Source: a virus | Reading direction: 5' to 3' (one strand) | Length of the DNA stretch: 62,434 nt | Virus record (IMG/VR): IMGVR_UViG_3300036859_000414 | Location: 1 to 62,434 of that record | In this document: positions 15,196 to 62,434 of the stretch, one piece after another | Position numbering within the stretch: position 1 is the first letter of the stretch | Layout of the letters: each line of letters starts with the position of its first letter | The notes under the pieces: generated by a model | The model's database searches: none | Seen by the model: the letters and a program-made list of their open reading frames with translations, nothing else | What the model was told of the DNA's origin: nothing | Translations under genes and position numbers: made by a program

Positions 15196-16589
15196 TAGAG
15201 GAGTGCTCTCCCTGCAGGAAGGATGTAGTACTTCTTCTTGTCCTTCGACGCTGCAACCATGCCTGCTTGTATGAGCGTATCGACGGCTTGTTTGAATGAG
15301 ACAGCGTTCATCTTCGACGTGTTCTTACGAAGCCATTCGGAGTGCCCGAGCTCGCCATTCTTCGCGGCTCGAAGTTGACTCAGCAGTCGTAGTTGATCGT
15401 CGCCCATAGCGCTCTGTGCCAGTTGTTCGAATGCCGCTGGGAGGTAGTGCTCGATGTAGTTCAGGATCTTGTCTGCGAGGATGAGCATGTCCACGTCAAG
15501 GTCGAGGACACCTGGGTTCTGTGCTGCGTTGAGGACCATTGCGAGTTGGAGGATGCGGTCTGGCTTTCGTTCGAAGTATCCGGCGAATTGCTTTTCGAGC
15601 ACCGTCTTCGAACGGCCTGTGTACCACAGACGATACCACTTCTCGGCAGTTGGAGTGAGCTTTACCTCTCCGATCACGCGTTGGAGGATGAGGAGCCCAT
15701 CGACGAGCTTCTTGCCAAGAGTTTGATCGAGCGGAGGCGGGAGAGGAAAGGATCTTGGACTATCCTTCTGCACTACGAACAAGAGGCGTGACATAAAGCC
15801 TCCTGCGAACGCGTCCTTCGTGATCGAGCTCTGCATCCAGTCGATCGTTGTAGCAGCTAAGTGTGAGATCGCAACATTAGTGAGTTGAGTCTGTCCTCGC
15901 AGGAGCGTCGAAGACGACCAGACGTCTGGGCAGTCGAACAACGCGGTGAGCATTGGCACCAGCCCTTCTAGGTACTGCTGCTTTCCAAGGAAGACTGCCC
16001 ATTCGGGAGCGTAAATAAGGCCCGTTGCAGTAGGCTGAGTCTTGAAGGACTCGATGAGCGCTTCTGGTGTGACTTTGTCTGCAAGGACGTTTCCTCCTAT
16101 GCGACGGAAGAGGTTGACAGCAAGGTTGCACGCTGTAGTCTTCTTGCACATCCCTGCTGGCGCAACAAGCACAGCACAGATGTTCGGGAAGATGTTCCCA
16201 TTTCCTCGTGGGAAGTAGACTCTTCGAGCAATAGTGGAACCGAGGACCACCAGTCCTGCGAAGAAGTGGAACACTGTCGGCGGTTCGGTCTCTCTCGTGT
16301 ACTCGATGTAGTCACGTAGCCACCCAGTCTTCGGAACGAGAGTATCGAAGTCTACGACGCGGCCTTTACCGCCTCCTTTCACTGCTTGCTCTATGAGCTG
16401 CTCGTCGACGGAAAAGGTCTGTGCGACCTTTTGTACGAAGTCCGTCGGAAGGAACTGCTCAGGGATCCCTTCTGCATAACTGAGGAACTCTGTCAGCCCT
16501 TTGTCGTTCAGTTGAGAGGGCTTCAGAAGCGTGAGCAGCCGTACGAGCTGGTCTACACGCTCGTCAAAATCTAGGTCCTGGAAGCGCAA
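15195..16589 (-). CDS. DUF3987-like replication ATPase
   Basis: 464 residues. Walker A-like APAGMCKKTTAC near residue 150; Walker B candidate LIYAPEWAVF; a C-terminal winged-helix-like domain (SFKQAVDTLIQAGMVA). The architecture resembles DUF3987 phage/plasmid proteins thought to act in replication initiation or as helicases. It lies between the polymerase module and a helix-turn-helix gene, consistent with replication. No separate DnaB-type helicase or primase was recognised, so this may be the phage's replicative ATPase. Confidence 0.65.
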   Translation of the reverse strand: MRFQDLDFDERVDQLVRLLTLLKPSQLNDKGLTEFLSYAEGIPEQFLPTDFVQKVAQTFSVDEQLIEQAVKGGGKGRVVDFDTLVPKTGWLRDYIEYTRETEPPTVFHFFAGLVVLGSTIARRVYFPRGNGNIFPNICAVLVAPAGMCKKTTACNLAVNLFRRIGGNVLADKVTPEALIESFKTQPTATGLIYAPEWAVFLGKQQYLEGLVPMLTALFDCPDVWSSSTLLRGQTQLTNVAISHLAATTIDWMQSSITKDAFAGGFMSRLLFVVQKDSPRSFPLPPPLDQTLGKKLVDGLLILQRVIGEVKLTPTAEKWYRLWYTGRSKTVLEKQFAGYFERKPDRILQLAMVLNAAQNPGVLDLDVDMLILADKILNYIEHYLPAAFEQLAQSAMGDDQLRLLSQLRAAKNGELGHSEWLRKNTSKMNAVSFKQAVDTLIQAGMVAASKDKKKYYILPAGRALL

Positions 16590-16599
16590 CTAGTGCCTC

Positions 16600-16956
16600 C
16601 TACTCGTCATTTGGGTCTTCGTCGTCATCGACTTGCTCGCCCGTCTCGATCTGTTTCATCAGAAGGGCAAGGCCGACGGCGCTCATTTCTTCTCCACTCG
16701 AGACATGCTCTCGCAGAATCTCGAATGCGGACTGTGCTCGCTCGGACCAAAGAGTGCCGATGTTCGCATCGACAGGTCGTTCGTTCTCTTTAGACGCGAG
16801 CGCTCTGATTCGAACGTTGTAGTGACCTGAAGCTACGAATGTGATACGCATAGGTCCAAGTATGTACTGGTCGTTGTGGGTCGTGACATCGATTGTCGAG
16901 CGGCGGCGCTGTGGGTGGATCACTGGAGCTTCGAGCGACACCTCGACGATGATCAC
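16600..16956 (-). CDS. Hypothetical protein, 118 residues
   Basis: GTG at 16956 overlaps the polymerase TGA (GTGA). Beta-rich first half, helical second half and an acidic end (DDDEDPNDE). Acidic tails are common in replication accessory proteins, but no family is recognised. Confidence 0.6.
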   Translation of the reverse strand: MIIVEVSLEAPVIHPQRRRSTIDVTTHNDQYILGPMRITFVASGHYNVRIRALASKENERPVDANIGTLWSERAQSAFEILREHVSSGEEMSAVGLALLMKQIETGEQVDDDEDPNDE

Positions 16957-19433
16957 GCGGCCATTCCTAGATACTTGCGGAGCGCCTTCTCCGTCTGCTT
17001 CTCTTCGTCCGTGTCCGGCTTGCACGCACGCCAGTTGAGTCCGACTGCACCATCACTTGCACATGACCACCCTTGTGGGTAGTAGTGTCGAACGATGTCT
17101 GGATAGCGTGACGCCTGTTCGATCTCAGGGAACCTGCGCTCCATGATATCCCGCATACACTCGTCTGCCTGCTTCGCGACATCCTTGTGCGCCATGACGA
17201 CGCACTCGTCGTGCACGCTCATACGGAGCGTTGCGCCCTTCGGAAGCTGTGCTTCGAGAAGGATGAGTGCGATGTACATCATGTGTGCCGCATTGCCCTG
17301 CATCGGGAAGTTGAATGCTTCAGGGAGCTGTTGGTTCGTGAACCACCAACGCCTACGACCCCAGGCTGTTGGGTAGTAGTGGTTCTTCAGCACATAGCTC
17401 TTGATCGAGTCTCGGAACTCGAAGTACTGTTTCAACTCGCGTTTCAGGTTCGCGACATAAAGATCGACGCGATCGAGGGGGATGTACGTGTCTGGCTGTC
17501 CTGCGCGTCCTTCCGAGACGCTCTTGTTGCTACGACCGTAGAGAAGACCGTAGTTGATTGCTTTTGCCTCGAAGCGTTCGCGCTTCGTGACTTCCTCATA
17601 GGCCTTTTGGAATGCTTTGGACCACGCGTCGCTGTGAGGATCTCTTCCACGAATGATCGCGTCGAGCCCTGTCTCATCTCCTGCAAGGGTCATTGCAATA
17701 CGCCACTCGATGCCCGACCAGTCACGAGAGATGATCACGTGGTCTGGAGTGTCTGGGACGATGATCTCTCGGACTTCGTTCGGCCAGTTCTGTAGGTTCG
17801 GACCCATGCTGTTCAGACGGCCTGTGGCTGCTTTCGCGCTGCCGAATGTCGAGTGTACGAAGTAGTTCTCGTCTTGAGGACAGCACACGAAGGTACTATC
17901 CCATTTGCGCAGCGTCCGTATGGACCTTACGAGCTTGAAGATCGGGCTGAGAGCTTTCATCGACGGATCGGTGCTCTGATCCATGATGAGCGCGAGAGCG
18001 TCTAGAGCATCTGCGTCGACAGATGGGCGCATTCCGAACTGTCTGTCTGTCACGTACTGGACGGGCAGGCCCATCTGGTCGTACAGGAGATGCTTGAGCT
18101 GCTTCGGCGAGTCTACGTTGAACGAGGCGTCACCAAGACCTCTCTTCAGCTTAATCTCGTACTCATCCGCTTTGCGATTGAGGATGATGTGCCACCCTGC
18201 TGCACGCTGTTGGTCTTTTTTCACTCCCCTCTGTCGCATGTGTCGCAGGACAGGCTGCAACGGCATAATCTGGTTGAAGTACAGAGCAGTCTGTCCCAAC
18301 TGCTCCATTTCTTTGTACTCGTCTTCGAAACCGCGCACCGTTGCGTGCACGTCCTTGCAGCAGCCGATCTGGAGGGCATCCTCTCCAGACTTGTACATCG
18401 AGTCGTCTTTCCAGTACTTCTCGTCCGTGACCGAAGCGCCGATGAAGCCCAAGTCTTTCGGGAGTGCAGAGTTGAGCAGATGCCATCCGATCATCGTGTC
18501 GAACGTCGGTCCGTTGAACGTGAAGCCTTTGGCCTCTTGGAACGGGATGTCGAACGCTTCGCTGTTCTGTCCGACAGTCAACAGGTCTGGATCCGCATGA
18601 AGCTTCGCGACGAAGGCTTTGACATCCGGCGTCATATCAAAGCAGAAGATCTCGTCTGCGTCTGCTGCGATGCCGATGCAACGGAACGCGTCCACTTTCG
18701 GGTCGAGACCTGTAGTCTCCAAGTCGTGTCCGTAGTACCTCAGTCCGCCGACTCGTGGCGTGCGAATGCGTCGCTCGAGATACTCACCTACTTGATCGAG
18801 CTGAGCGTGGATCGTATACTTCCAGGGACGTCGGCGGATGTCCTCGTAAGCACTTTCTGCCTTTGCACGCGCGAGATCGAACACAGCAGCCGGCCACAAG
18901 TGCTGCTGCCTCATAATCCCTGCTGGGTGGAACGTTCCGACGACCTTGTATCTCTCTGGACCTGTGCCTTCTGGTCCTCTGCGCTTCGGACCTTCTGTCG
19001 GAACTGATCGAACCTGCAGAATGCCTTTCTTCGTCCCAGTGATGGTCTGGTGCGCAATGTTCCCAAGAGTGAGGATGACGTTCGGCTTGACTGTATTCAG
19101 CTCCTTCAAGAGGAACGGAGCACAGCACCGTATCTCCGTCTCGGTCGGTGTCCTATTGACAATCTTGCCATTCGCACCACGCGCTGTCGGACGACACTTC
19201 ACGACGTTCGTCAGAAAGATCTTCTTGCGTTCGATCCCTGCGTGGATGAACTGAGCGTTGAGGACTCGACCACTTCCTCCTTGAAACGGCTTGAGAGAGA
19301 CACCTTCGTCCTCTCCTGGCGCTTCTCCGACAGCGAAGATCGTAGCGTCCTTCGGTCCTTCACCCCACACGATCCCTTCGGTAGAGGTGTACAACGGACA
19401 CACTTTGCACGAGTCAGGTTTCGGATTGCTCAT
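16953..19433 (-). CDS. DNA polymerase I-type with N-terminal family-4-like uracil-DNA glycosylase domain
   Basis: 826 residues. Residues about 1-190: UDG superfamily, with CKVC near residue 9, VGEAPGEDE, VVKCRPT and RCCAPFL, i.e. the four cysteines expected for an Fe-S family-4 enzyme. About 220-390: DnaQ-like 3'-5' exonuclease starting HDLETTGLDP (near 237). About 400-826: family-A polymerase with motif A SRDWSGIEWR (near 568), motif B KAINYGLLYG (near 623) and motif C SVHDECVV (near 739). It replicates phage DNA with proofreading; the UDG part could detect or remove uracil. SPO1 polymerase is a known precedent for a UDG-like N-terminus. ATG at 19433 overlaps the next gene by ATGA. Confidence 0.93.
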   Translation of the reverse strand: MSNPKPDSCKVCPLYTSTEGIVWGEGPKDATIFAVGEAPGEDEGVSLKPFQGGSGRVLNAQFIHAGIERKKIFLTNVVKCRPTARGANGKIVNRTPTETEIRCCAPFLLKELNTVKPNVILTLGNIAHQTITGTKKGILQVRSVPTEGPKRRGPEGTGPERYKVVGTFHPAGIMRQQHLWPAAVFDLARAKAESAYEDIRRRPWKYTIHAQLDQVGEYLERRIRTPRVGGLRYYGHDLETTGLDPKVDAFRCIGIAADADEIFCFDMTPDVKAFVAKLHADPDLLTVGQNSEAFDIPFQEAKGFTFNGPTFDTMIGWHLLNSALPKDLGFIGASVTDEKYWKDDSMYKSGEDALQIGCCKDVHATVRGFEDEYKEMEQLGQTALYFNQIMPLQPVLRHMRQRGVKKDQQRAAGWHIILNRKADEYEIKLKRGLGDASFNVDSPKQLKHLLYDQMGLPVQYVTDRQFGMRPSVDADALDALALIMDQSTDPSMKALSPIFKLVRSIRTLRKWDSTFVCCPQDENYFVHSTFGSAKAATGRLNSMGPNLQNWPNEVREIIVPDTPDHVIISRDWSGIEWRIAMTLAGDETGLDAIIRGRDPHSDAWSKAFQKAYEEVTKRERFEAKAINYGLLYGRSNKSVSEGRAGQPDTYIPLDRVDLYVANLKRELKQYFEFRDSIKSYVLKNHYYPTAWGRRRWWFTNQQLPEAFNFPMQGNAAHMMYIALILLEAQLPKGATLRMSVHDECVVMAHKDVAKQADECMRDIMERRFPEIEQASRYPDIVRHYYPQGWSCASDGAVGLNWRACKPDTDEEKQTEKALRKYLGMAA

Positions 19434-19870
19434 TTTGTGATGACGTGGAAACGATCGTCGAGTAGTGGGCTAAGAACGGGTTCGACTTGCTCCCATAAGA
19501 GCTGGCCGTTACCGCATCCAGGACGTGGAAGAACAATCGTAGAGTCGTTCGACATGTAGAACGAGTCGATCAGTGCAACGAGCTCAGTAGCACTCCGCTT
19601 GATGAGCTCAAGGTCTGCAGGCTCTCGCCAATGGTGCTTTACGGGAAACGTGAAGAGCTTCGTCGGACCGAACGTGATGTAGTGACAGTGGTTTCCAAAA
19701 CCTCGAATCGTAGAGCCGATACGGTACTCGATTCCAGGATAGCGCGTCTTCGCTTCCAAAGCGCATCCTCTTCCCATTACCGCTCCACCGTTCTGACGGA
19801 CTGCTCCGTTCGTCGTGATAACACGATAGTGAGCTGGATAGGTCCAGAGGTCACCGAAGACGACTCTCAC
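19430..19870 (-). CDS. Macro-domain protein (ADP-ribose binding/hydrolase-like)
   Basis: 146 residues from a GTG at 19870, one base after the preceding stop. Features of macro domains in order: VVFGDLW, the ribose/ADP loop TTNGAVRQNGGAVMGRG, a middle strand HYITFG, and LPRPGCGNGQLLWE, the second binding loop as in ADP-ribose-1''-phosphatase types. It may remove ADP-ribose from proteins or nucleic acids, or process NAD by-products. Directly upstream of the polymerase in the same operon. Confidence 0.75.
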   Translation of the reverse strand: MRVVFGDLWTYPAHYRVITTNGAVRQNGGAVMGRGCALEAKTRYPGIEYRIGSTIRGFGNHCHYITFGPTKLFTFPVKHHWREPADLELIKRSATELVALIDSFYMSNDSTIVLPRPGCGNGQLLWEQVEPVLSPLLDDRFHVITK

Positions 19871-19871
19871 G

Positions 19872-20009
19872 TTAGTGACTGCTCCACAGGTTCGTTGACC
19901 ACCAGACACCTGCACAGAATCCGACTACGAGTCCGACGATCCCTCCAATGACGAAGAGGAGTCCTCCTCCACCGCTATCCTGTCGACGGTCGAGTGTTTG
20001 GGCTTCCAT
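19872..20009 (-). CDS. 45-residue membrane protein
   Basis: ATG at 20009. Short polar N-terminus, Gly run, then one helix (LLFVIGGIVGLVVGFCAGVW). The stop is one base from the macro-domain start. Function unknown. Confidence 0.6.
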   Translation of the reverse strand: MEAQTLDRRQDSGGGGLLFVIGGIVGLVVGFCAGVWWSTNLWSSH

Positions 20010-20631
20010 GACGTTCTTCCTCCAGTTCGTAGAACATTCGAGGTGAGTCTTCCGTAGCCCACTTGTCGCCTTTGTTCTCGACAGAGTAGAGCTGGTAGTT
20101 CGTTTGGTAGTCGGGACGTTCGAGCATTGGTACGGTGATGAAGGACGGTTCATACCAGCGCAGCCGGTTGTTCGGCTGAGCACAAAATGTTCCGTTGTTC
20201 AGACGGATCACGTGTGCACACTTGTGACCGCCTTCTCCGGGGTTGTCAGCGAGAGACGAGTTGTGCCAGTCGAGGGTGAAGAGGTAGATGCCCTGTTCGA
20301 CCTGGTGGTTCTTGAGGATCACGTCGACTCGAAGGCCTTTTAGGAACGAGTACTCGTTGCACACAATGTCTGAGGACAGACAGTCCCACAGCTCGAGAAG
20401 ATCGAGCGCCATGACAGGTGCGTCCGGCTTATGGACGAAGGCACTGATGGGCATTCGGTGGATCAGTGCACCGTTGTGAAGCATGCAGTGGAAGCCGATT
20501 GCTCGGCTTTGGACGCTCGAGGCGCCGAAGATCGCACACGGGATAAACTCTCCGTGGTGCGCTTCGAGGTTATAGAGATACTCGCTGCGTAGTGCGCAGT
20601 AGACGATCGGAGTATCGACGTTCAGTTCCAC
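19975..20631 (-). CDS. Conserved-looking hypothetical protein, 218 residues
   Basis: Alpha/beta protein with many His/Cys/Trp (HHGEFIPCAIFGASS, FHCMLHNGALIHRMP) and a late Asn/Arg/Trp cluster (CAQPNNRLRWYEPSF). Cytoplasmic, no signal. The composition looks like a folded enzyme or binding protein, but I cannot assign a family. Its last 35 bases overlap the small membrane gene. Confidence 0.7.
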   Translation of the reverse strand: MELNVDTPIVYCALRSEYLYNLEAHHGEFIPCAIFGASSVQSRAIGFHCMLHNGALIHRMPISAFVHKPDAPVMALDLLELWDCLSSDIVCNEYSFLKGLRVDVILKNHQVEQGIYLFTLDWHNSSLADNPGEGGHKCAHVIRLNNGTFCAQPNNRLRWYEPSFITVPMLERPDYQTNYQLYSVENKGDKWATEDSPRMFYELEEERHGSPNTRPSTG

Positions 20632-24192: not shown

Positions 24193-24356
24193 TATTGTCC
24201 TCCTCCCAACCGCATCCCACACCACGGACAGTAGATGATTGGGATCTCGTACTCATCGTTCACGTCGATCACCCACACACCGTGCTTGTTCAGACGGATA
24301 GGTGGGTCTGGAAGGACCCAAGTTTGGGGACGAGGAACGATACAGAGATGCGTCAT
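24192..24356 (-). CDS. 54-residue protein with CxxC
   Basis: ATG at 24356 overlaps the QueE stop; its TAA touches the next ATG (TAATG). Pro-rich start, then CPWCG near the end. Composition and overlaps support a real gene; function unknown. Confidence 0.6.
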   Translation of the reverse strand: MTHLCIVPRPQTWVLPDPPIRLNKHGVWVIDVNDEYEIPIIYCPWCGMRLGGGQ

Positions 24357-25093
24357 TGGACTTTGAGGATCTTGTGCATCTGGGTAGATAGATTGAGCTC
24401 CGGATGCTCCTTCAGCACGTCGAGGCAGTACATCAAGTTCTGCTTCTCGATCTCGAACTTGCCGTTTCTCGGCTGGATGAAGACCTTCTTGCCTTCATTC
24501 GCCCAGCGGATTGCGTCAGAGAGGTCAGGCCATTTCTTGAGTTCGCCGTTCTGCGACTCGTTCGCAGTCTTGTAGCCTTCTGGTAAGACTCTCCAATGAG
24601 TCGAGTCGCTGCGGTTGATCTCTCCAAGCCCTGGCACAATAACTTTCACTTCGTGTGCCTTAAAGATCATCTCTTCGAGGAAGCCTGGCTTCGGTGATAC
24701 ACAGAGCCACACAGCGCCTGAGTACGCTCGAACAAAATCGGGCGAGAGTGTAGCTTCGCCAAGCATCTTAGTACCGCTCGTCTCGATGTGGATCATCGGC
24801 GGGTGCGCCAGCTTGTTGAATGCTCGGAAGAGAGGGTCAAGCTCTTGGTCGAGAGGCTCGCCACCTGTGAGACATACGTGCCTGTACGGCTCGGTCCAGG
24901 TAGCCAACTCTAACTCTCCCAGCTCTCCACCGCCTCTCCAACCGGGTCCGACTTTGTCGAAATCCGTGTCGCAGTGCTGGCAGATTCTCTTGCCAACAGA
25001 GCACCCGACGAAGCGGATGAAGGCCATAGGAGTGCCTGTGTAGACGCCTTCGCCCTGCAGCGACTTAAACCGTTCAGCGATCTTGTACTTCAT
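24353..25093 (-). CDS. queE: 7-carboxy-7-deazaguanine synthase (radical SAM)
   Basis: 246 residues. LQGEGVYTGTP at the N-terminus, then the Fe-S cysteines Cys31, Cys38 and Cys41 (GCSVGKRICQHCDTDF), then the SAM motif TGGEPL and SPKPG, all typical of QueE. Spacing CX6CX2C is longer than the usual CX3CX2C. It converts 6-carboxytetrahydropterin to 7-carboxy-7-deazaguanine (CDG). It shares the cluster with QueD and FolE. Confidence 0.92.
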   Translation of the reverse strand: MKYKIAERFKSLQGEGVYTGTPMAFIRFVGCSVGKRICQHCDTDFDKVGPGWRGGGELGELELATWTEPYRHVCLTGGEPLDQELDPLFRAFNKLAHPPMIHIETSGTKMLGEATLSPDFVRAYSGAVWLCVSPKPGFLEEMIFKAHEVKVIVPGLGEINRSDSTHWRVLPEGYKTANESQNGELKKWPDLSDAIRWANEGKKVFIQPRNGKFEIEKQNLMYCLDVLKEHPELNLSTQMHKILKVQ

Positions 25094-25392
25094 CAGTACA
25101 CCTTGACCCTTCCGACGACTTCCTTGATAAGCTTGTCGAGTGCTTCGGCCGTGAGATGCTTCTGAATCGCTAGGTCGATCTCGAGCATCTTCTCTCCGAG
25201 CAGTTGCTGTGTCAGCCGCACGACTTCCTGCTCGATGATCTTTTTCACAGGATGGTCGTATTGCTTCGTGATGTTGGCGACATACTCGTTAACCATCTTG
25301 ACGAGTGTCTCACCGAGAACGCTATGCAAGACAGCTTCTGCGATGGCTCGATTGATGTCTTCTGCTTTCAGCTCGACTCGGATTTCGCTCAT
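25093..25392 (-). CDS. Helical protein, 99 residues
   Basis: ATG at 25392, overlapping QueD's stop. Almost entirely amphipathic helix (SEIRVELKAEDINRAIAEAV and later segments), likely coiled-coil or oligomeric. It sits between queD and queE; function unknown. Confidence 0.6.
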   Translation of the reverse strand: MSEIRVELKAEDINRAIAEAVLHSVLGETLVKMVNEYVANITKQYDHPVKKIIEQEVVRLTQQLLGEKMLEIDLAIQKHLTAEALDKLIKEVVGRVKVY

Positions 25393-25796
25393 CGCACCCT
25401 CTCGATCCTCTGGTCCTGTCTCTCTGCAATAGCCGCGTACTTCGCAGTCTCGTGCACGACGACCTTCTCGACGTTGTAGTCTCGGTCGAGTACTTGGTTG
25501 AAGATCAGGGTCGCGATGTTCTCTGTCGTCGGCTCGACGTTCAGAACTACGACTCGAAAGTGCATAGCGTCGAGCGTGTCGATGAGAGGGTCCTCTTCGT
25601 AGAGTACCATCGCATGATCTAGATCCTCTAAGAGGCTCCACAACATGTCATCGGCTCTCTTGAAGTCGATGAACTCACCCATGGTGTGGATGTGTACTTC
25701 GACCGTCACGTTATGCCCATGCGGAGACGAGCAGATGCCGTCATAAGACGGAAGGCGATGGCCCATCGAGATCGTGCGTTGGATCTTGATCTTCAC
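25389..25796 (-). CDS. queD: 6-carboxy-tetrahydropterin synthase
   Basis: 135 residues. Zinc ligands His13, His26 and His28 with the catalytic Cys22 (MGHRLPSYDG then CSSPHGHN), then LDHAMVL, EPTTENIA and the final VHET motif. It converts dihydroneopterin triphosphate to 6-carboxy-5,6,7,8-tetrahydropterin, the QueE substrate. ATGA overlap with both neighbours. Confidence 0.92.
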   Translation of the reverse strand: MKIKIQRTISMGHRLPSYDGICSSPHGHNVTVEVHIHTMGEFIDFKRADDMLWSLLEDLDHAMVLYEEDPLIDTLDAMHFRVVVLNVEPTTENIATLIFNQVLDRDYNVEKVVVHETAKYAAIAERQDQRIERVR

Positions 25797-49542: not shown

Positions 49543-50154
49543 ATGCCAACCATTGACGCCGCAGTTGGTGGTGCGAGTTCGAACTCGTACGAGACGCACG
49601 CAGAAGCGAACACGTACTTCGACGAGAGGCTCCCTCTTAATCCTCCGTGGGTGACGAGCGGACAGGAAGCCGTGTTGATCATGGCGACGAGGCTATTGGA
49701 CGCGCTCGCACAGCCGTTCAAGACCTTCTTCCCAGCCATGAATGGCTCTCCTGCGTACTACCGAGTGCGGCGTCAGTGGACTGGTAGTCCCGCCACAGCG
49801 ACCCAAAGGCTCGCATGGCCTCGCGTCGGAATGTATGACTCGAACGGCAATGCAATTGCGAGCAACGTTATTCCCATCGAGCTCAAGTGGGCAGAGAGTG
49901 AGCTTGCGGGACAGCTTCTCAAGGCCGATAGGACTCTCGACAACGATGTGATCGTGCAGGGCGTTACGAGTGTGAAGGCTGGGAGCGTTGCTCTGACCTT
50001 CAAGGAGAACATCATCCCGCAGGTGATACCGGATGCCGTGTACAACCTGCTGCCACAGAGCTGGTTGACCGACGAGCTCTACGTGATGGCCAACTCCGCA
50101 CAGTTCGACGTCGTGAGTGAAAGGCCTCCGGTGCTCGGAGAGGAGTCACTATGA
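49543..50154 (+). CDS. Head-tail connector / head completion protein (DnaT-like)
   Basis: 203 residues. ANTYFDERLPLNPPW, an all-helical core with RLAWPRVGMYDSNGNAI, then WAESELAGQLL and a late strand region: the pattern of connector adaptor proteins often annotated DnaT-like. It should sit on the portal. ATGA overlap with the next gene. Confidence 0.7.
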   Translation: MPTIDAAVGGASSNSYETHAEANTYFDERLPLNPPWVTSGQEAVLIMATRLLDALAQPFKTFFPAMNGSPAYYRVRRQWTGSPATATQRLAWPRVGMYDSNGNAIASNVIPIELKWAESELAGQLLKADRTLDNDVIVQGVTSVKAGSVALTFKENIIPQVIPDAVYNLLPQSWLTDELYVMANSAQFDVVSERPPVLGEESL

Positions 50155-50534
50155 GCCTCTTGGACGTCGTGAGAGCTGGTGTGGCTCTTGCGAATACGAT
50201 CACACAGCCTTTGCAGGCTACGGTCGTGTACGAGAGACGTCTTACGTCTGATGATCAGGGGACTGGCGCCTTCGCCGCTCCAGTGAACCTCAAGGCCATC
50301 GTCGACTGGAAGCAGAAGCAGATCAGAACGCCGACTGGCGAGCTGTCTGTGAGTCGATCATACGTGATGTTCCTCGACATCGTTGCACTTGTTGCAGCTA
50401 CCGGCGGAGAAGGCATCAACGACCAGGACCTGATCACTCTGCCAGACGGGACTACGGGACCGATCTTGGACATGAGTGGGTTCATTGATGCAGGGACAGG
50501 ACACCCCGTGGCGACCGAACTGTGGCTGGGATGA
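50151..50534 (+). CDS. Head closure / stopper protein
   Basis: 127 residues. Long helix plus beta core (ATVVYERRLTSDDQGTGAF, then SYVMFLDIVALVA), consistent with head-tail stopper proteins by size and order. It is the last head gene before the glycosyltransferase cassette. Confidence 0.6.
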   Translation: MSLLDVVRAGVALANTITQPLQATVVYERRLTSDDQGTGAFAAPVNLKAIVDWKQKQIRTPTGELSVSRSYVMFLDIVALVAATGGEGINDQDLITLPDGTTGPILDMSGFIDAGTGHPVATELWLG

Positions 50535-51298
50535 TCACCATTTGCATGACCTACTTCAAGAGTCTCCAGCTTGCAAACCTCGAAGCTGCTCTCTACTCGG
50601 TAGGGAGGCAGAGGCTGGATCACGTGCAGGAGATCATCCTGCTGGACAACAACACGGAGGACACGTACGAGGATGTGAAGTGGGCCGTTGAGCATGCGAA
50701 GGTTCCGAAGCCTGTCAGTATCATACAGGCGAAGCATGGGGATAGGACTAAGACGCACGCGTGGTCGAGCAATAGAGTCATCGGACAAGCGAAGACGCCT
50801 TGGGTCTTCTTCACGCGAGCAGATTACATCCTGGACTTCAGGCTCCTGGACAAGTGCATGATGGTCATAGAGCAGTATCCGAGAGACGACTGGGACGGGT
50901 TCATCACTGGACACGTCTATCATCTCGGAGTCGACATCGGCGTCGTGAATCACGCAGCGTGGCGGCAAGAAGGCCCACAGGTTCTGAAGGGCCTGCCTGG
51001 CGTGGAGAACGACTATACGAGTATCGATTCTGGCGTCTGGATGGGACGGAGAGCGTCTTGGGAGAGGGTCGGAGGACTCGACGAGCGGCTTACGGCATGG
51101 GGGCATGCTCAGACAGACTTCCAGCACCGACTCTACGAGACTGGGACTGAGTTCGTGAAGATCCACGAGGCTCTGTTCTACCACCCTCAGCACAGCGCGG
51201 AGCGCGATATAAACGCAGCACACGAGCAGTTGAAGGCACAGGGTAGAGACATTCGTGAGATGTGGAAGAGATACGACGGAAAGAAGCCTTACTCATGA
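50531..51298 (+). CDS. GT2-like glycosyltransferase, first gene of inserted cassette
   Basis: 255 residues; ATG at 50531 overlaps the stopper stop. ITICMTYFKSLQLANLEAAL and EIILLDNNTEDTY form the GT-A nucleotide-binding start; WVFFTRADYIL is the DxD-like site (RAD); WMGRRASWERVGGLDERLTA near the end is typical of galactosyltransferase-like GT2. Cytoplasmic, soluble. It likely adds a sugar to a virion protein or to another cassette product. Confidence 0.75.
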   Translation: MITICMTYFKSLQLANLEAALYSVGRQRLDHVQEIILLDNNTEDTYEDVKWAVEHAKVPKPVSIIQAKHGDRTKTHAWSSNRVIGQAKTPWVFFTRADYILDFRLLDKCMMVIEQYPRDDWDGFITGHVYHLGVDIGVVNHAAWRQEGPQVLKGLPGVENDYTSIDSGVWMGRRASWERVGGLDERLTAWGHAQTDFQHRLYETGTEFVKIHEALFYHPQHSAERDINAAHEQLKAQGRDIREMWKRYDGKKPYS

Positions 51299-52011
51299 GA
51301 CCTTACAACCGCTCGCTCCACCCTGACGACTACGCCTTTCTCGCGAAGTGGGATACGGAGCTCCATGCGTTTCTGGATACGATGGTGAGGAGAAAGGTGC
51401 CGCATCGTGAGTGGCACCCACATCGGTTCTGGGAGTACGCGTCGATGATGCAGCAGATGGAGGAGCTCGGAATGAAGAGCGACATCGAGCTCATCGATGT
51501 GGGAGCAGGAGCGTCTTTCTTCGATCCGTTCTGCGCCTTCTACTATCCTCGTCTGTGCTGCACCGACTCCATGAAGTACGGAGACGTGACCCCGATGGTC
51601 GAGGCGCAGAGAAGAGCGTATGACGTTGCTCTTCCCCTCTACGACCTGATGCTCGAGGACATGAGTCCGAAGTGGGAAATTGGCTGGGGCGGAGCGACGA
51701 ACAAGTTCGATGTGACGATGTGCATCTCGACCATCGAGCATGTAGACGGGCACGACCAAGCGATGAAAGAGCTGATCAGGATCACGAAGCCAGGCGGTTA
51801 CATCTTCATCACCAGTGACTACTTCAGGGACCACGCTCAGTGGGAGGCCTCTCCGTCCAGGCATCTTCAAGTCACACCCTACATGCAAGAGAGCGTTGAA
51901 GCACTTCCTGCAAAGTTCGGCCTCGAGTTCGTAGGTCCCACGGACTTCGGGTATAAGGGAGACTTCGTTCACACGTACTCGTTCTGCAACCTCTGTCTTC
52001 GTAAACCATGA
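51295..52011 (+). CDS. SAM-dependent methyltransferase (class I)
   Basis: 238 residues, ATGA overlap. ELIDVGAGASFFDPF is motif I; TMCISTIEHVDGHDQAM and ELIRITKPGGYIF are motifs IV/V of methyltransferase type 11. A short N-terminal extension contains His/Arg residues. Could methylate sugars, peptide or small-molecule products of this cassette. Confidence 0.78.
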   Translation: MRPYNRSLHPDDYAFLAKWDTELHAFLDTMVRRKVPHREWHPHRFWEYASMMQQMEELGMKSDIELIDVGAGASFFDPFCAFYYPRLCCTDSMKYGDVTPMVEAQRRAYDVALPLYDLMLEDMSPKWEIGWGGATNKFDVTMCISTIEHVDGHDQAMKELIRITKPGGYIFITSDYFRDHAQWEASPSRHLQVTPYMQESVEALPAKFGLEFVGPTDFGYKGDFVHTYSFCNLCLRKP

Positions 52012-52061
52012 CCAGTATCCACTTGGCTCTTCGGAGCCATGACAACGGAAAAGGCCAATGA
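52008..52061 (+). CDS. 17-residue micro-gene (MTSIHLALRSHDNGKGQ)
   Basis: ATGA overlaps with both neighbours, like 34610-34660. Without it the methyltransferase and radical SAM genes would be 46 bases apart. It may serve coupling rather than encode a useful peptide. Confidence 0.45.
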   Translation: MTSIHLALRSHDNGKGQ

Positions 52062-53662
52062 GCAAAATCATACCTGTCTCGTCTCTCAACTCCGCTTACC
52101 AGATGAGCGGAGAGGGAAGCTGTTCGACTGTCACAACTTCGGGCCTTCCGATCAGGAAGATCCCACGCAAGAAGATTCACTGCATCCTGCCGTCGAGCCC
52201 GTGGCTGGCAGACTCGAAGACCAACGTGCCACTCGGTGTGCTGTACATCGCAGGCCTCCTGCGCGAGCAAGGACACGACGTACGAGTGACGTCGATGCTC
52301 GACAAGCGCTATGAGGGCAATATCCACCTGCCGGAAGAGGTGATGGACAGTGACGTTCACATGTTCGGGTTCTGCACGCCACAGTTCGGAGAGGCGCTCG
52401 AGCTCGCGGCGTACATCAAAGACAGGTGTCCTGAAGCGCTGCTGGTTGCTGGTGGTCCTCATCCGTCGTACGAGCCGAAAGAGGTCTACGAGGCAGGGAG
52501 ACAGGAGCATTACCATTACAAGGGTGTGCTGGCTCAGAGGAGAGACTATCGCGCGGCTGACGGACGCAGACTGTTCGACTCTGTCGTTGTGATGGAAGGA
52601 GAGGTCGCTGTGCTCCAGCTCCTGTCGGACTGGGATGCTGGAAAGCTCCAGCCGTACTACTACGGCGATAAGGCCGATGCGATGGACCTCGACGCCATTC
52701 CATTTCCGGCCTGGGATCTTCTGCCGAAGGACCACATCTACAACGACGGCGTCGCGGTCATGAAGAAGAGGTACTTCCCGTCCGATATCCATCCGGATGC
52801 GAGCGGTGCTGTCATGAGCCTCATCGGCACACGCGGATGTCCTTACAAGTGCACGTACTGCAGCACGCCGTGGATCGGACAGAAGCCACGCTATCGCTCG
52901 CCACACAACATCATCACTGAGATGAGCCTTGTCATGGACAAGGGCGTCCGGATGTTCAAGTTCCAGGACGACACCTACACGCTGCACAAGACCAAGCTGA
53001 GGGAGTTGGCCGATGCCATCGACAGTGCCTTTGGACGAGACGCTTTCGCTGCGAGAATCCATACACGAGTCAACACTATGGATGATCATGTCGCTGAGTC
53101 TCTCAAGCGCATGTCCTGCAAGGTTACGTGCTTTGGCATCGAGAGCGGATCACAGCGAGTTCTTGACGCGAATCAGAAGGGAACGAAGGTCGCGCAGAAC
53201 ACGGCTGCGATCATCAAGGCTAAGGAGCACGGCTTCTACACCATCGCGTTCCTCGTGATCGGCATGGCTGGAGAGACGCTGGAGACGATGAAGGAGACAC
53301 AGCAGTGGCTTCTCAGCGTCAAGCCCTACCTCGACTCGTGCAACCTCGCTGTCGGCATCCCGTATCCTGGCTCGAGGTGGTGGACCCATCCGCAAGAGAG
53401 CGGCATCGACATTAGGGATTACAACTACGACAACCAGTGGATCGTCGGGTTCTCGGCACGAGACGAGATCCTCGTTCGGCCACACGGAGCGACGGTCGAC
53501 GACATGTTCAAGATCAAGCGCGAGATGTTCGACTTCCTCGTGTATCACGGCTGGGCGAAGGCCGAGTGGGACGAGGATGTCAGAATCCGTAAGCAGCAAG
53601 AGCAGGCTGCTCTCGAAGGCACTCTGACGGCTGCGTCTGGCCTGACGTACGCGGGGCACTGA
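52058..53662 (+). CDS. B12-binding-type radical SAM enzyme
   Basis: 534 residues. About 40-190: Rossmann-like cobalamin-binding-type domain (VPLGVLYIAGLLREQGHDVR, FGFCTPQFGEALELA, VAGGPHPSYEP). About 250-460: radical SAM core with CPYKCTYC (CX3CX2C), GIESGSQRVLD and IAFLVIGMAGETL. A C-terminal 70-residue tail follows. Such enzymes do methyl transfer to unreactive carbons or rearrangements. The classical DxHxxG cobalamin motif is not evident. More G/C-biased codons than its neighbours. Its substrate is unknown; context suggests a sugar or peptide. Confidence 0.82.
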   Translation: MSKIIPVSSLNSAYQMSGEGSCSTVTTSGLPIRKIPRKKIHCILPSSPWLADSKTNVPLGVLYIAGLLREQGHDVRVTSMLDKRYEGNIHLPEEVMDSDVHMFGFCTPQFGEALELAAYIKDRCPEALLVAGGPHPSYEPKEVYEAGRQEHYHYKGVLAQRRDYRAADGRRLFDSVVVMEGEVAVLQLLSDWDAGKLQPYYYGDKADAMDLDAIPFPAWDLLPKDHIYNDGVAVMKKRYFPSDIHPDASGAVMSLIGTRGCPYKCTYCSTPWIGQKPRYRSPHNIITEMSLVMDKGVRMFKFQDDTYTLHKTKLRELADAIDSAFGRDAFAARIHTRVNTMDDHVAESLKRMSCKVTCFGIESGSQRVLDANQKGTKVAQNTAAIIKAKEHGFYTIAFLVIGMAGETLETMKETQQWLLSVKPYLDSCNLAVGIPYPGSRWWTHPQESGIDIRDYNYDNQWIVGFSARDEILVRPHGATVDDMFKIKREMFDFLVYHGWAKAEWDEDVRIRKQQEQAALEGTLTAASGLTYAGH

Positions 53663-54327
53663 TGGCTTTCAGCAGAGTCAGTGTCTTGATCCCGACACGC
53701 AAGCGTCTTGATCGCCTCGGCAGGATGTTGGAGTCCTACGAGGCGACCACGAGAGGCGTAGAGGACAAGTCCGAGCTGGTCTTCCGAGCGGATGAGGATG
53801 ATCCAGAGACTGTCGAGTTCCTGAAGAGCAGAGGGTACTGGGTGGGAGTCGGACCGAGAGAGAACGGCTATCGGAGCCTCCCACTCTTCTTCAACCAGCT
53901 GCTCTCAGGAGCGACGGGCGATGTGCTCATGTGTGGGAACGATGACATGGTCTTCGTCACTCCAGGCTGGGCACCGAAGCTCTTGGCGACAGCGGATCTG
54001 TTCGTGGACGGAGTGTTCGATCTTGGAGTGCGCACACATAACGAGACACACTTTCCGTTCGCATGTGTCTCACGGCGTGTCGCAGACCAGATCGGCTTCC
54101 TCTTCGATCCTCGGATCTTCTGGGGAGACATCTATCTGCGAGACGTGATGGCGCACTTCGGACGGTGCGTCTACGTCCCGGATGTGCAGATCGATCATGA
54201 ATGGATGGGTCACGCACCTGATCCGACATTCCTCGAAGGCGAGAAGGCACGACGCGACTCGCACATGCAGTACCATGCGATTGCAGTGGACGAAGCAGTC
54301 CAGAAAGTGAGGGAGTTACTCCAATGA
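53662..54327 (+). CDS. GT2-like glycosyltransferase
   Basis: 221 residues. RVSVLIPTRKRLDRLGRMLE is the GT-A start; DVLMCGNDDMVFVTPGW carries the DDM metal site. The C-terminus has IDHEWMGHAPDPT with a His typical of an acceptor pocket. TGATG junction upstream, ATGA downstream. Confidence 0.75.
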   Translation: MAFSRVSVLIPTRKRLDRLGRMLESYEATTRGVEDKSELVFRADEDDPETVEFLKSRGYWVGVGPRENGYRSLPLFFNQLLSGATGDVLMCGNDDMVFVTPGWAPKLLATADLFVDGVFDLGVRTHNETHFPFACVSRRVADQIGFLFDPRIFWGDIYLRDVMAHFGRCVYVPDVQIDHEWMGHAPDPTFLEGEKARRDSHMQYHAIAVDEAVQKVRELLQ

Positions 54328-54959
54328 TCCCGGTGTGTGTTCCTGTTCTGAACAGGCACGATCTCTTCGAGCGGCTTCGAGATTCTCTCGAGGCAGGAGA
54401 GGTCAAGCCTCCGCAGATCATCGTCATTGACAATGGTCAGAAGTGGTCGTGGAGACCAAAGGAGGGAACGATTCCGGTCGAGGTCTTTACACCCATGAGA
54501 CCGATGGGTGTGGCTGAGAGCTGGAACTGGTTCATCGATAGAGCGGATAGTGACGTGCTGCTCGCGAACGACGACATCGTCTTCGGACCTCAGTCCTACG
54601 GGACGCTGATCGCACAGCCGTCCTGCTTCGTGAGCTGCCACTACGGGTTCTCGTGCTTTGTGCTCAGGCGTGAGTGCGTGGAGAAAGTCGGACGATTCGA
54701 CGAGACCATCTCTCCCGGCTACGCCTACTACGAGGACCGAGACTACTACAACAGAATGCAGGTTGCGAGGATTCAGGACATCGTCGTGGAGTGTGGAGTC
54801 CTGCACGAGCACAGTGCAACCTTGCAGGTCTACACGCCCTTGCAGATGGAGGAGCATCATAGAAAGTTCGCGATCGCGCACAAGAACTTCTTGAAGAAGT
54901 GGGGAGAGTCGGAGTGGTCACCTTCATTGTCCCGACCGTCGGCCGTCGAAGCCTCGTGA
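54324..54959 (+). CDS. GT2-like glycosyltransferase
   Basis: 211 residues. MIPVCVPVLNRHDLFERLRD start; SDVLLANDDIVFGP carries the DD site; GYAYYEDRDYYNRM is an acceptor-side ED motif. The last 15-20 residues overlap the next gene. Same strand and codon style as the cassette. Confidence 0.75.
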   Translation: MIPVCVPVLNRHDLFERLRDSLEAGEVKPPQIIVIDNGQKWSWRPKEGTIPVEVFTPMRPMGVAESWNWFIDRADSDVLLANDDIVFGPQSYGTLIAQPSCFVSCHYGFSCFVLRRECVEKVGRFDETISPGYAYYEDRDYYNRMQVARIQDIVVECGVLHEHSATLQVYTPLQMEEHHRKFAIAHKNFLKKWGESEWSPSLSRPSAVEAS

Positions 54960-55480
54960 GGACACTCGAGAGCATTGAGTGCTGGCCAGGAGATGAGATT
55001 CTCCTTGTGGGAGATGGTGTCTACTCCAACGATCATCGGTGTCGGCATATCCTCGTGAACAGAGGGAACGACTGGGGACACTCGGAACGGAACCATGCGA
55101 TGAAGTTCGTACGAACTCCGTACATGGCCCATATCGACGACGATGACTGGTACGTGCCTGGGTCGAGGGCAGTGATCCAGGATGCCATTCACAAGATGGA
55201 GAAGCCTGCACCCATCCTGTTCCGTATGCAGTTCCCGTGCGGAATCGTGCTCTGGCAGGATAAGGATGTGCGGTGTGGCAACGTCGGGACACCGATGATG
55301 ATCATGCCGAACGAGCAGGAGAAGCTCGGGAAGTTCCTTCCGTTTGTGGGAGGGGACTGGGCCTTTCTCAGCGACTCAAAGTGGAACAAGGAGGACATCG
55401 TCTGGAGAGAAGAAGTCATAGCGCTCTTGGATCATGATCCAGGAGCACCGTCAAGTGCATATGCGTCTGGGAGGGCGTGA
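54914..55480 (+). CDS. GT2-like glycosyltransferase
   Basis: 188 residues from GTG 54914 (GTG 54899 also possible). VTFIVPTVGRRSLVRTLESI start; YMAHIDDDDWYVPGSRA holds the DDDD metal site. Shorter than the others; likely a minimal GT-A catalytic domain. Confidence 0.75.
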   Translation: MVTFIVPTVGRRSLVRTLESIECWPGDEILLVGDGVYSNDHRCRHILVNRGNDWGHSERNHAMKFVRTPYMAHIDDDDWYVPGSRAVIQDAIHKMEKPAPILFRMQFPCGIVLWQDKDVRCGNVGTPMMIMPNEQEKLGKFLPFVGGDWAFLSDSKWNKEDIVWREEVIALLDHDPGAPSSAYASGRA

Positions 55481-55481
55481 T

Positions 55482-56651
55482 ATGAGAAAGAAACTGCTGT
55501 GGGTGGGAGACGCAGGAGTCCCAAGTGGGTTCGCGAAAGCGACTCACAATATCCTGCACTACGTGATGCGAGAGTACGACGTGACGGTCCTCGGGATCAA
55601 CTACCGAGGAGACCCACATGCGTACCCGTACGACATCTTCGCTGCGGCGCCAGGTGGAGACTTTCTGGGAGTCGGACGGCTTATTTGGATGTGTGATGCG
55701 GTCAAGCCGGACGTGGTCGTCATCCAGAACGATCCATGGCTCCTACCGCTGTACCTCAAGAAGCTGAAGAGCATCAAGGAGTACGCGAAGATCCCCGTCG
55801 TCGCTGCGTGTGCTGTCGATGGGAAAGGTCTCGAGTTCAAGCCGATGAACGGATTCGACCTTGCGATCTTCTGGACCCAGTTCGGCCTCGATGAGAGCAG
55901 AGCTGGAGGCTACGAGGGTGCGGCCTGTGTCATTCCGCTTGGTGTCGATACGAAGGTCTTCCACCCGATGGACAAAAAGGAAGCCAAGAACAAGAGGCTT
56001 CCAACCCTCGTCGACAACTTCATCGTTGGCAACGTGAACCGTAACCAAAGCAGGAAGCGCTTAGATCTTACGATAAAGTGCTTCTGCGAGTGGGTGAAGG
56101 ACACGAGGAACCATGATGCGCAGCTCTATCTGCACGTTGCGCCGACGGGTGATACGGGTGTCGATGTCGTCCGGCTTATGCGGTACTACGGGCTGCTCGA
56201 TCGACTTGCTCTTGTGCAGCCGGACACGTGGTACGGTATCACGGAAGAGGAGATGTGCCTCACGTACAACTGCTTCGATCTGCAGGTCACGACGTCGATC
56301 GGAGAAGGCTTCGGCCTTACGACGTTCGAAGGAGCAGCGTGCGAGGTCGCACAGATCCTTCCGAAGCACTCGGCTCTGCTGGAGTACTTCGAAGGCGCGG
56401 CGTGGCTTGTGGACTGCTCGTCCACGATGGTCCTCGATCCGAACAGCGCGATCGGAGGAGTGATCGACGAGCACAAGTTCATGAGCGCACTGGACGCCAT
56501 GTACAAGAATCCACGGTACATCGAGAACAATGGACAGGCTGCCAGAGAGCGTGCTGCTCAGACACGCTTTACCTGGGAGCACGTTGGTCAGATGTACCTC
56601 GACGCGCTGAAAGGCGTGTTCGAGCGAAAGGAAGAGGTCGTAGGAGCCTAA
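55482..56651 (+). CDS. GT4-like glycosyltransferase (GT-B fold)
   Basis: 389 residues from ATG 55482. N-terminal Rossmann half begins KKLLWVGDAGVPSGFAKATH; the linker reads VIPLGVDTKVFHP; FIVGNVNRNQSRKRLDLTIK is the GT4 landmark; SIGEGFGLTTFEGAACE is the E-x7-E nucleotide-sugar motif. Retaining GT-B enzyme, last of the cassette, directly before the tail-joining genes. Confidence 0.82.
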   Translation: MRKKLLWVGDAGVPSGFAKATHNILHYVMREYDVTVLGINYRGDPHAYPYDIFAAAPGGDFLGVGRLIWMCDAVKPDVVVIQNDPWLLPLYLKKLKSIKEYAKIPVVAACAVDGKGLEFKPMNGFDLAIFWTQFGLDESRAGGYEGAACVIPLGVDTKVFHPMDKKEAKNKRLPTLVDNFIVGNVNRNQSRKRLDLTIKCFCEWVKDTRNHDAQLYLHVAPTGDTGVDVVRLMRYYGLLDRLALVQPDTWYGITEEEMCLTYNCFDLQVTTSIGEGFGLTTFEGAACEVAQILPKHSALLEYFEGAAWLVDCSSTMVLDPNSAIGGVIDEHKFMSALDAMYKNPRYIENNGQAARERAAQTRFTWEHVGQMYLDALKGVFERKEEVVGA

Positions 56652-56652
56652 G

Positions 56653-57069
56653 ATGATCAAGGGGTCGATGGGCGGCGCAGACCAGGTAGTCTCGACGATC
56701 AAAAAGATCGCTGGCAAGTTTCCTGACCGAGTGGCGAAAGCCATCTATCAGGAAGCCCAGATCGAGATGACGGAAGCCAAGCGTCGTACCCCTGTCTCTC
56801 CTACTCCTGCACCGAAGGGAGTCGTTCCTGGTGCTCTACGAGCAAGTGGTACTGTGCATGAACCTCGACGCTCTGGGAACGACATTCACGTGCAGATGTC
56901 CTTCGGAAACTCTTCTATCGACTACGCAATCGTGCAGCACGAGAATCTGGACTACCATCACACCACAGGACAAGCAAAGTACCTCGAGAGCGTACTGAAC
57001 GAGTCCAGACCACACATGGCAGCACGAATCGCAAAACGCATCTCTCTCAACAATCCGGACGCGAAGTAA
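56653..57069 (+). CDS. HK97 gp10-like head-tail joining protein
   Basis: 138 residues. VAKAIYQEAQIEMTEAKRRT, then PVSPTPAPKGVVPGALRAS and DYAIVQHENLDYHH are hallmarks of the gp10/neck family. It resumes the structural order broken by the cassette. Confidence 0.8.
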   Translation: MIKGSMGGADQVVSTIKKIAGKFPDRVAKAIYQEAQIEMTEAKRRTPVSPTPAPKGVVPGALRASGTVHEPRRSGNDIHVQMSFGNSSIDYAIVQHENLDYHHTTGQAKYLESVLNESRPHMAARIAKRISLNNPDAK

Positions 57070-61715: not shown

Positions 61716-62270
61716 ATGAGTCTTCAGTCTTGGCAGGAAACCCTCATCAGTACACAGGTTGATGGCAGTGCGCTTACAGCAGCTGCAGCGGCCACGTGCA
61801 TTCCGGCAGCAGCGAAGTACACCTTCCCTGCGAACTACTTCTCTATCGGCAAGCAACTACTCATCAAGGCTCATGGCAGGATCTCGAGCGTCATCACGAC
61901 GCCTGGTACAGCGAGGTACGATCTGAGGCTCGGTGGCACGGTGGTGTTCGATAGCCTCGCTATCCTCTTGGACACCGCAGCAGGTGCCACGAACGTGAAC
62001 TGGTACCTCGAGATGCTCTTGACCTGCAGAGCGATCGGTGCAGCAGCGAACTTCATGGGAGCAGGTACGTGGACGGCGTACAATATCCTCGGAACACCTG
62101 CCACGCCGCCGAAGGGCTCTCTCACTGCGAACCTTCCGTGGAACAGTGCTCCTGCCGTCGGCAGCAACGTCGACAGCACGACTTCTCTCCAGCTCGACAT
62201 GTTCTTCACGCAGACTGTGGCGACGGGCTCTATGACGCTGCACCAGTACAGCGTCTGGTCGTTGAACTAG
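61716..62270 (+). CDS. Distal tail structural protein
   Basis: 184 residues, AGGAGG site. Beta-rich with few charged residues (STTSLQLDMFFTQTVATGSM), resembling the C-terminal domain of the tail hub in composition. Lies between tape measure and hub, so likely a tail-tip or side-fibre subunit. Confidence 0.65.
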   Translation: MSLQSWQETLISTQVDGSALTAAAAATCIPAAAKYTFPANYFSIGKQLLIKAHGRISSVITTPGTARYDLRLGGTVVFDSLAILLDTAAGATNVNWYLEMLLTCRAIGAAANFMGAGTWTAYNILGTPATPPKGSLTANLPWNSAPAVGSNVDSTTSLQLDMFFTQTVATGSMTLHQYSVWSLN

Positions 62271-62283
62271 AGTAGGAGCCGCC

Positions 62284-62434
62284 GTGCCTTCAGGAGCTTT
62301 TAACAAAGGTCCTCTCGAGTTCGGACCAGGTCGACGTCCGGTTCTCGTCGATACGAGGCCGCAGATCAAGTCTGTCACTCCGTCCATCGCGAGGTCTACT
62401 GGAGGCACGGCTCTTACTATCACTGGCTACGAGT
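62284..62434 (+). CDS. Tail hub protein with IPT/TIG domains, N-terminal part (continues at base 1)
   Basis: GTG start at 62284 behind AGTAGGAG. Fifty codons and one base fit before the window ends; that base plus bases 1-2 makes TAT (Tyr) and the reading frame continues to 3194, for a joined protein of about 1114 residues. The first IPT/TIG immunoglobulin-like domain begins here (SVTPSIARSTGGTALTITGY) and its next strands (TPPTVTIGGFACTSV) are encoded at the start of the window. This in-phase joint is the main evidence that the sequence is circular. The function is described under the 1..3194 entry. Confidence 0.85.
   Translation, partial: MPSGAFNKGPLEFGPGRRPVLVDTRPQIKSVTPSIARSTGGTALTITGYE

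Follow-up and report, generated by a model that had tools for sequence, protein, structure and literature searches.

The virus record IMGVR_UViG_3300036859_000414 (62,434 nucleotides; the whole 62.4-kb stretch is called the window here) carries a cassette of seven genes at positions 50531-56651, all on the + strand, between genes that join the head of the virion to its tail. In order, the cassette encodes a glycosyltransferase (GTa1), a methyltransferase (MT) dependent on S-adenosylmethionine (SAM), a radical SAM enzyme with a B12-binding domain (rSAM), and four further glycosyltransferases (GTa2, GTa3, GTa4 and GTb). The open reading frames (ORFs) and the two genes that border them are the following.

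50151..50534, + strand: head-tail connector/head stopper, left border of the slot (phrog_3881, E=2e-5); orthologues in L129-L131, phages in which the slot is empty
50531..51298, + strand: GTa1, GT-A glycosyltransferase (PF00535, 2.6e-6; PF02709, 1.7e-6; both above cut-offs)
51295..52011, + strand: MT, class I SAM-dependent methyltransferase (PF08241, 1.8e-7, above cut-off)
52058..53662, + strand: rSAM, radical SAM enzyme with a B12-binding domain (PF04055, E=9e-19; PF02310, E=8e-11)
53662..54327, + strand: GTa2, GT-A glycosyltransferase (phrog_14945, 6e-13; PF00535 sub-threshold)
54324..54959, + strand: GTa3, GT-A glycosyltransferase (phrog_29879, 3e-22; PF00535 sub-threshold)
54899..55480, + strand: GTa4, GT-A glycosyltransferase, start uncertain (PF00535, 1.1e-5, above cut-off)
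55482..56651, + strand: GTb, GT-B (GT4-like) glycosyltransferase (phrog_2170, 1e-30; PF20706, 6e-8, above cut-off)
56653..57069, + strand: gp10-like/neck-1 protein, right border of the slot (PF04883, E=0.06, marginal alone; an orthologue matches phrog_5)

The first-pass annotation, made from the letters of the window alone, had read the block as four GT-A and one GT-B glycosyltransferases, a class I methyltransferase and a B12-type radical SAM enzyme, and Pfam and PHROG profiles confirmed all seven ORFs. Five of the seven proteins passed Pfam cut-offs; GTa2, which carries a conserved GNDDM motif, and GTa3 were clear by phage glycosyltransferase PHROGs. GTa1 also showed a weak local match to chondroitin synthase. 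The start of GTb is most likely the ATG at 55482, although its ORF opens at 55434. Most junctions are coupled, as had been claimed: ATGA overlaps link the connector gene to GTa1 (50531), GTa1 to MT (51295) and GTa2 to GTa3 (54324), a TGATG overlap links rSAM to GTa2 (53662), and GTa3 and GTa4 share about 60 bases. The exceptions are a 46-base gap between MT and rSAM and a single base between GTa4 and GTb. The G+C content of the cassette equals that of the remaining genome. A search for the same gene order in related phages returned dozens of distinct contigs, and this recurrence shows that the cassette is not a chance arrangement.

Upstream of the cassette lie the major capsid gene (48154), a gene for an IPT protein, the head-tail adaptor (phrog_477) and the connector (phrog_3881); downstream follow the gp10-like/neck-1 gene, a connector/terminator (phrog_2595), the tail tube (phrog_158) and the tape measure. 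The proposed location between a head stopper and a gp10-like gene was verified through phrog_3881 and through an orthologue of the gp10-like gene that matches phrog_5, ‘tail completion or Neck1’, at 9e-6. Relatives were gathered with rSAM, tube, capsid, GTa2 and C-methyltransferase baits and annotated by profiles from the window genes. The interval between the connector and gp10-like genes is empty in four of them (L117 and L129-L131), and the two flanking ORFs of L131 even share 8 bases. GTb is the most widespread gene of the interval and its sole occupant in about nine relatives (including L052, L095 and L132); among these is the relative with the closest capsid in the set (L052/L118; major capsid protein (MCP) 85% and tube protein 74% identical). 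Elsewhere the interval holds GTb with a methyltransferase, GTa3-GTa4-GTb or, in many phages, the full set, and alternative contents are a DegT aminotransferase, a SPASM-domain radical SAM enzyme, a PhyH oxygenase and methyltransferases, all of which are sugar-tailoring or plausibly so. On a tree of the tube protein from 47 distinct phages, the presence and absence of rSAM required at least 10 changes, 7 of them forced by strongly supported branches. The connector-gp10 interval is a cargo slot with changing sugar-tailoring content. Relatives that lack the block precisely between stopper and gp10, which the first-pass annotation had suggested looking for, were found with the slot empty or with GTb alone, and they favour insertion precisely at this point. 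The slot gene for the SPASM-domain enzyme (L084, 5556-6629, with copies in L083 and L085-L087) adjoins GTa3 and a methyltransferase. The neck region has another insertion point in L021, in which an insert of about 4.6 kb (15619-20197) with a 1157-residue ORF lies between the gp10-like and terminator genes.

The cassette tracks virion genes rather than a single lineage. GTa1-(MT)-rSAM-GTa2-GTa4 also occurs between the head and the tail genes of around a dozen contigs whose head module is not homologous and consists of terminase (TerL), a fused protease-capsid, portal and a collagen-like protein. The cassette of L019 sits between terminase and capsid, and in L211 GTa2-GTa4 adjoins capsid-like and connector-like genes, those two being named by sequence reading. 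In the second head lineage, with the non-homologous module, a collagen-like repeat protein is encoded just upstream of the cassette (L011, 6196-7116, and L012, L027, L028 and L031) and may be a glycan acceptor there. The cassette was absent from the isolated phages of the collection searched, in which GTa1 had no match and GTa2 matched at only 24-25% identity.

rSAM is the most conserved protein of the block. Median identity among 14 phages is 81% for rSAM, 62% for MT, 56% for the capsid protein and about 50% for the glycosyltransferases, and four-fold synonymous sites of rSAM match at 0.36 versus 0.29 by chance. High protein identity at synonymous sites near saturation indicates that rSAM is under strong purifying selection, and recent horizontal spread was thereby ruled out as the source of its conservation. 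The cysteines of the CxxxCxxC motif (C261, C265 and C268, in CPYKCTYC at residues 261-268) are invariant. rSAM has a PF04055 core and an N-terminal PF02310 domain above cut-off, two sequence features of cobalamin-dependent (class B) radical SAM methyltransferases, the PF02310 match being evidence of fold that does not establish bound B12. DVHMFG at residue 99 was rejected as the canonical B12 motif DxHxxG; judged by spacing, its place only 28 residues before the GG is unusual. The rSAM frame departs from this pattern in two contigs. In L031 (9992-12850) it spans 952 residues in a single ORF, some 420 of which are an in-frame insertion and apparent intein located exactly at the catalytic motif; the insertion starts CFVQGTLI and ends HN just before the third cysteine (C268), and the PT-HINT profile matched above cut-off and Pfam Intein_splicing below it (2e-5). 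In L020 (9100-10704) a stop codon near residue 72 breaks the frame, through sequencing error or decay.

The close relatives of rSAM that were found lie on viral contigs and one viral-looking genome contig, and bacterial and archaeal matches are 20-30% identical; some of these distant relatives have glycosyltransferase or methyltransferase genes nearby. The single close genomic match, on a 54-kb contig in a Sulfuricaulis bin, was rejected as a sign of a bacterial source, since the 21.6 kb retrieved carries the same phage genes and the contig is therefore probably viral. The SF3 phage radical SAM protein was discarded as a close relative (26% identity over 42% of the protein); its gene adjoins thymidylate kinase. 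Scores for named families (PhpK, BchE, HpnJ, HpnR and others) were all far below curated cut-offs, and the AprD4 equivalog model NF033070 gave 63 bits against a cut-off of 500. The AlphaFold model of rSAM is of moderate quality (predicted local distance difference test, pLDDT, 72.6). Its best fold match in the PDB is AprD4 with paromamine, followed by MgmA, TsrM, OxsB, TokK and CysS. Because these matches span methylases as well as AprD4, fold does not separate methylation from dehydration. Taken together, rSAM is a probable sugar C-methyltransferase, or another sugar-tailoring radical SAM enzyme.

The position between MT and GTa2 is informative in this respect. Among 34 resolvable distinct cassettes it holds rSAM in 28, a sugar 3-C-methyltransferase in 6 and both in none; neither enzyme is present in two cassettes, and two are cut. 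The substitute (L072 and others) has a Zn-binding domain (PF08421), a methyltransferase domain (PF13489) and a C-terminal domain (PF08484), all above cut-off, and aligns along its whole length with D-mycarose 3-C-methyltransferase (4e-38) and TcaB9 (5e-34). The substrates of TylC3-type enzymes are 4-keto nucleotide sugars. Mapped on the GTa2 tree, the swap takes at least two changes, of which strong branches force only one. Relatives of TylC3 and TcaB9 thus occupy the exact position of rSAM in sister cassettes, although they are classical SAM methyltransferases of unrelated fold and chemistry. That two unrelated enzymes share one site of an otherwise homologous cassette is an argument that they carry out the same step or an equivalent one, which would be sugar C-methylation or at least tailoring. 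The swap therefore points to sugar C-methylation as the job of rSAM and strengthens the guess of a C-methylated decoration made from the window alone.

AprD4, a dehydratase that acts on an aminosugar and is not known to need B12, is the top match of rSAM by both profile and fold, and the histidine of DxHxxG is not at its usual place. Both facts would suit a glycosylation island in which rSAM is an AprD4-like radical diol dehydratase or performs some other non-methylating sugar tailoring, such as deoxygenation or epimerisation. We regard this as unlikely, if the alternative most deserving of attention. AprD4 is the closest solved structure, but identity is 16-17%; it dehydrates together with a separate reductase, AprD3 (PMC5461906), and the cassette contains no such reductase. 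The B12-binding Pfam domain of rSAM is clear, and its positional substitute is a C-methyltransferase. The swap favours methylation over dehydration, and the lack of an AprD3-like protein agrees. Direct methylation of a residue in a virion protein, as MgmA does on glutamine, with the glycosyltransferases as separate neighbors, would fit the second-ranked fold match and the very strong conservation of rSAM, which would suit a conserved protein substrate. We consider it very improbable, because virion proteins are variable and rSAM is not (MCP median 56% versus 81%), and because every full cassette has rSAM amid its glycosyltransferases and a sugar C-methyltransferase can stand in its place.

We consider it reasonably probable that the block is an island for virion glycosylation, housed in a dedicated late-operon slot, with rSAM most likely C-methylating a sugar. 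Its recurrence at one place in dozens of related phages, at times with a known kind of sugar C-methylating enzyme instead of rSAM, suggests that these phages coat their virions with an unusual methyl-branched sugar. The cassette would be transcribed together with the neck and tail genes, and five soluble glycosyltransferases, drawing on nucleotide sugars of the host, would build up a short glycan step by step on a structural protein. GTb perhaps uses a GDP-sugar, given that its nearest solved structure (E=4e-15), B736L of chlorovirus NY-2A, binds GDP-mannose best (PMC9614988, PMC4691112). MT would add a methyl group to the glycan or sugar, and rSAM would place one on an unactivated sugar carbon through a cobalamin and [4Fe-4S]/SAM radical mechanism, as do GenK and GenD1. 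It is quite possible, if short of probable, that rSAM and its close relatives are a virus-specific family of radical SAM enzymes that depend on cobalamin and make the C-methyl-branched sugars of phage particles, that an unrelated, classical sugar C-methyltransferase can replace them in the same slot, and that the coat would thus depend on host B12.

Apart from the rank of AprD4 discussed above, several points weigh against a virion-glycosylation island with a C-methylating rSAM. The swap may reflect alternative sugars, with a different substrate for rSAM, and not one shared reaction. In the scanned parts of the window no gene for nucleotide-sugar synthesis was recognized, and no single candidate acceptor protein tracks the cassette. 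In L025, a 116-kb contig, rSAM, MT and GTa1 are loosely arranged next to a terminase-like gene, outside the neck region. The first-pass idea of a decoration on virion proteins fits a slot within the morphogenesis block that is kept there even with unrelated heads; its more specific suggestion, the IPT and Pro/Thr-rich proteins, held only in part. IPT proteins with Pro/Thr-rich stretches are present in the window, L002 and L010 and are plausible acceptors, but not general ones, and an obligatory role was not supported, as L003 and L034 carry the cassette but lack a stretch of this kind.

Phage glycosyltransferases often remodel the host envelope, and the cassette has several of them. The genes could in that case alter O-antigen, capsule or a teichoic glycan against superinfection and merely be seated in the late operon, which we judge improbable. 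None of the seven cassette proteins has a transmembrane segment, which disfavors an envelope-modification module; no GtrABC-type flippase or polyprenyl glucosyltransferase was matched among them by Pfam or PHROG, nor was a polyprenyl-phosphate enzyme found in the cassette. The first-pass annotation had named carriage elsewhere as an envelope module as the finding that would speak against virion decoration; wherever context is clear the genes lie in the morphogenesis block. Glycosylation of phage DNA or of a modified base is the least likely of the alternatives, and hardly credible. The window encodes QueE-like (24353-25093, - strand) and QueD-like (25389-25796, - strand) proteins, both below curated cut-offs, which suggest 7-deazaguanine synthesis for DNA modification or interference with host tRNA. 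The cassette, however, is tied to the neck-gene slot and to phages with unrelated heads, and Pfam and PHROG searches of it gave no DNA glucosyltransferase match.

Phage glycosyltransferase and methyltransferase genes near head genes are already on record. To our knowledge, neither a radical SAM enzyme nor a sugar C-methyltransferase takes part in mycobacteriophage virion glycosylation, and no cobalamin radical SAM enzyme in that of chloroviruses. As far as we found, the part of the literature covered describes neither a radical SAM enzyme in a phage structural glycosylation set nor the C-methyltransferase exchange nor the connector-gp10 slot. Capsid glycosylation in mycobacteriophage Che8 and its relatives (Freeman et al. 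2023, as cited in PMC11256854) likewise involves phage-encoded glycosyltransferases; by that account the glycan is covalently on the capsid protein. The glycosyltransferase genes of the related phage Maravista are placed close to the genome's 3′ end (PMC11256854) and not in a head-tail slot. Cyanophage S-CBS4 encodes a GT4 enzyme (34% identical to GTb), a galactosyltransferase and a SAM methyltransferase (gp014-gp016) between portal and head protease, but these are three genes at another position and without rSAM. Chloroviruses such as PBCV-1 and NY-2A also make their own virion glycan with methylated sugars, and B736L, the nearest structure to GTb, is one of their proteins; they are eukaryotic giant viruses with N-glycans on the capsid protein, and the acceptor of B736L is not known (PMC9614988). 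GenK and GenD1, the class B radical SAM sugar C-methylases of gentamicin synthesis, share with rSAM the B12-domain class and the proposed reaction type, but act on actinomycete antibiotic sugars; they were not among the matches found and are compared by function only (PMC5461906).

That phages glycosylate their virions has been recognized only recently and has been explored little. The uncultured phages described here, a whole family, maintain a fixed neck-region slot whose cargo changes repeatedly, much as the variable portion of an antigen locus does. If rSAM does C-methylate sugars, phages would join antibiotic producers in making methyl-branched sugars by cobalamin-radical chemistry. The natural swap with a TylC3-type enzyme offers a ready functional control, and the conserved rSAM is a good marker for finding phages with the cassette.

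Two further features of the window lie outside the cassette. A single ORF (16953-19433, - strand) fuses a uracil-DNA glycosylase domain to a family A DNA polymerase. At the ends of the window, the reading at 61716-62434 continues into an IPT/TIG-like domain, while the ORF at 1-3194 starts inside one, as if a permuted or circular genome had been cut within one tail protein.

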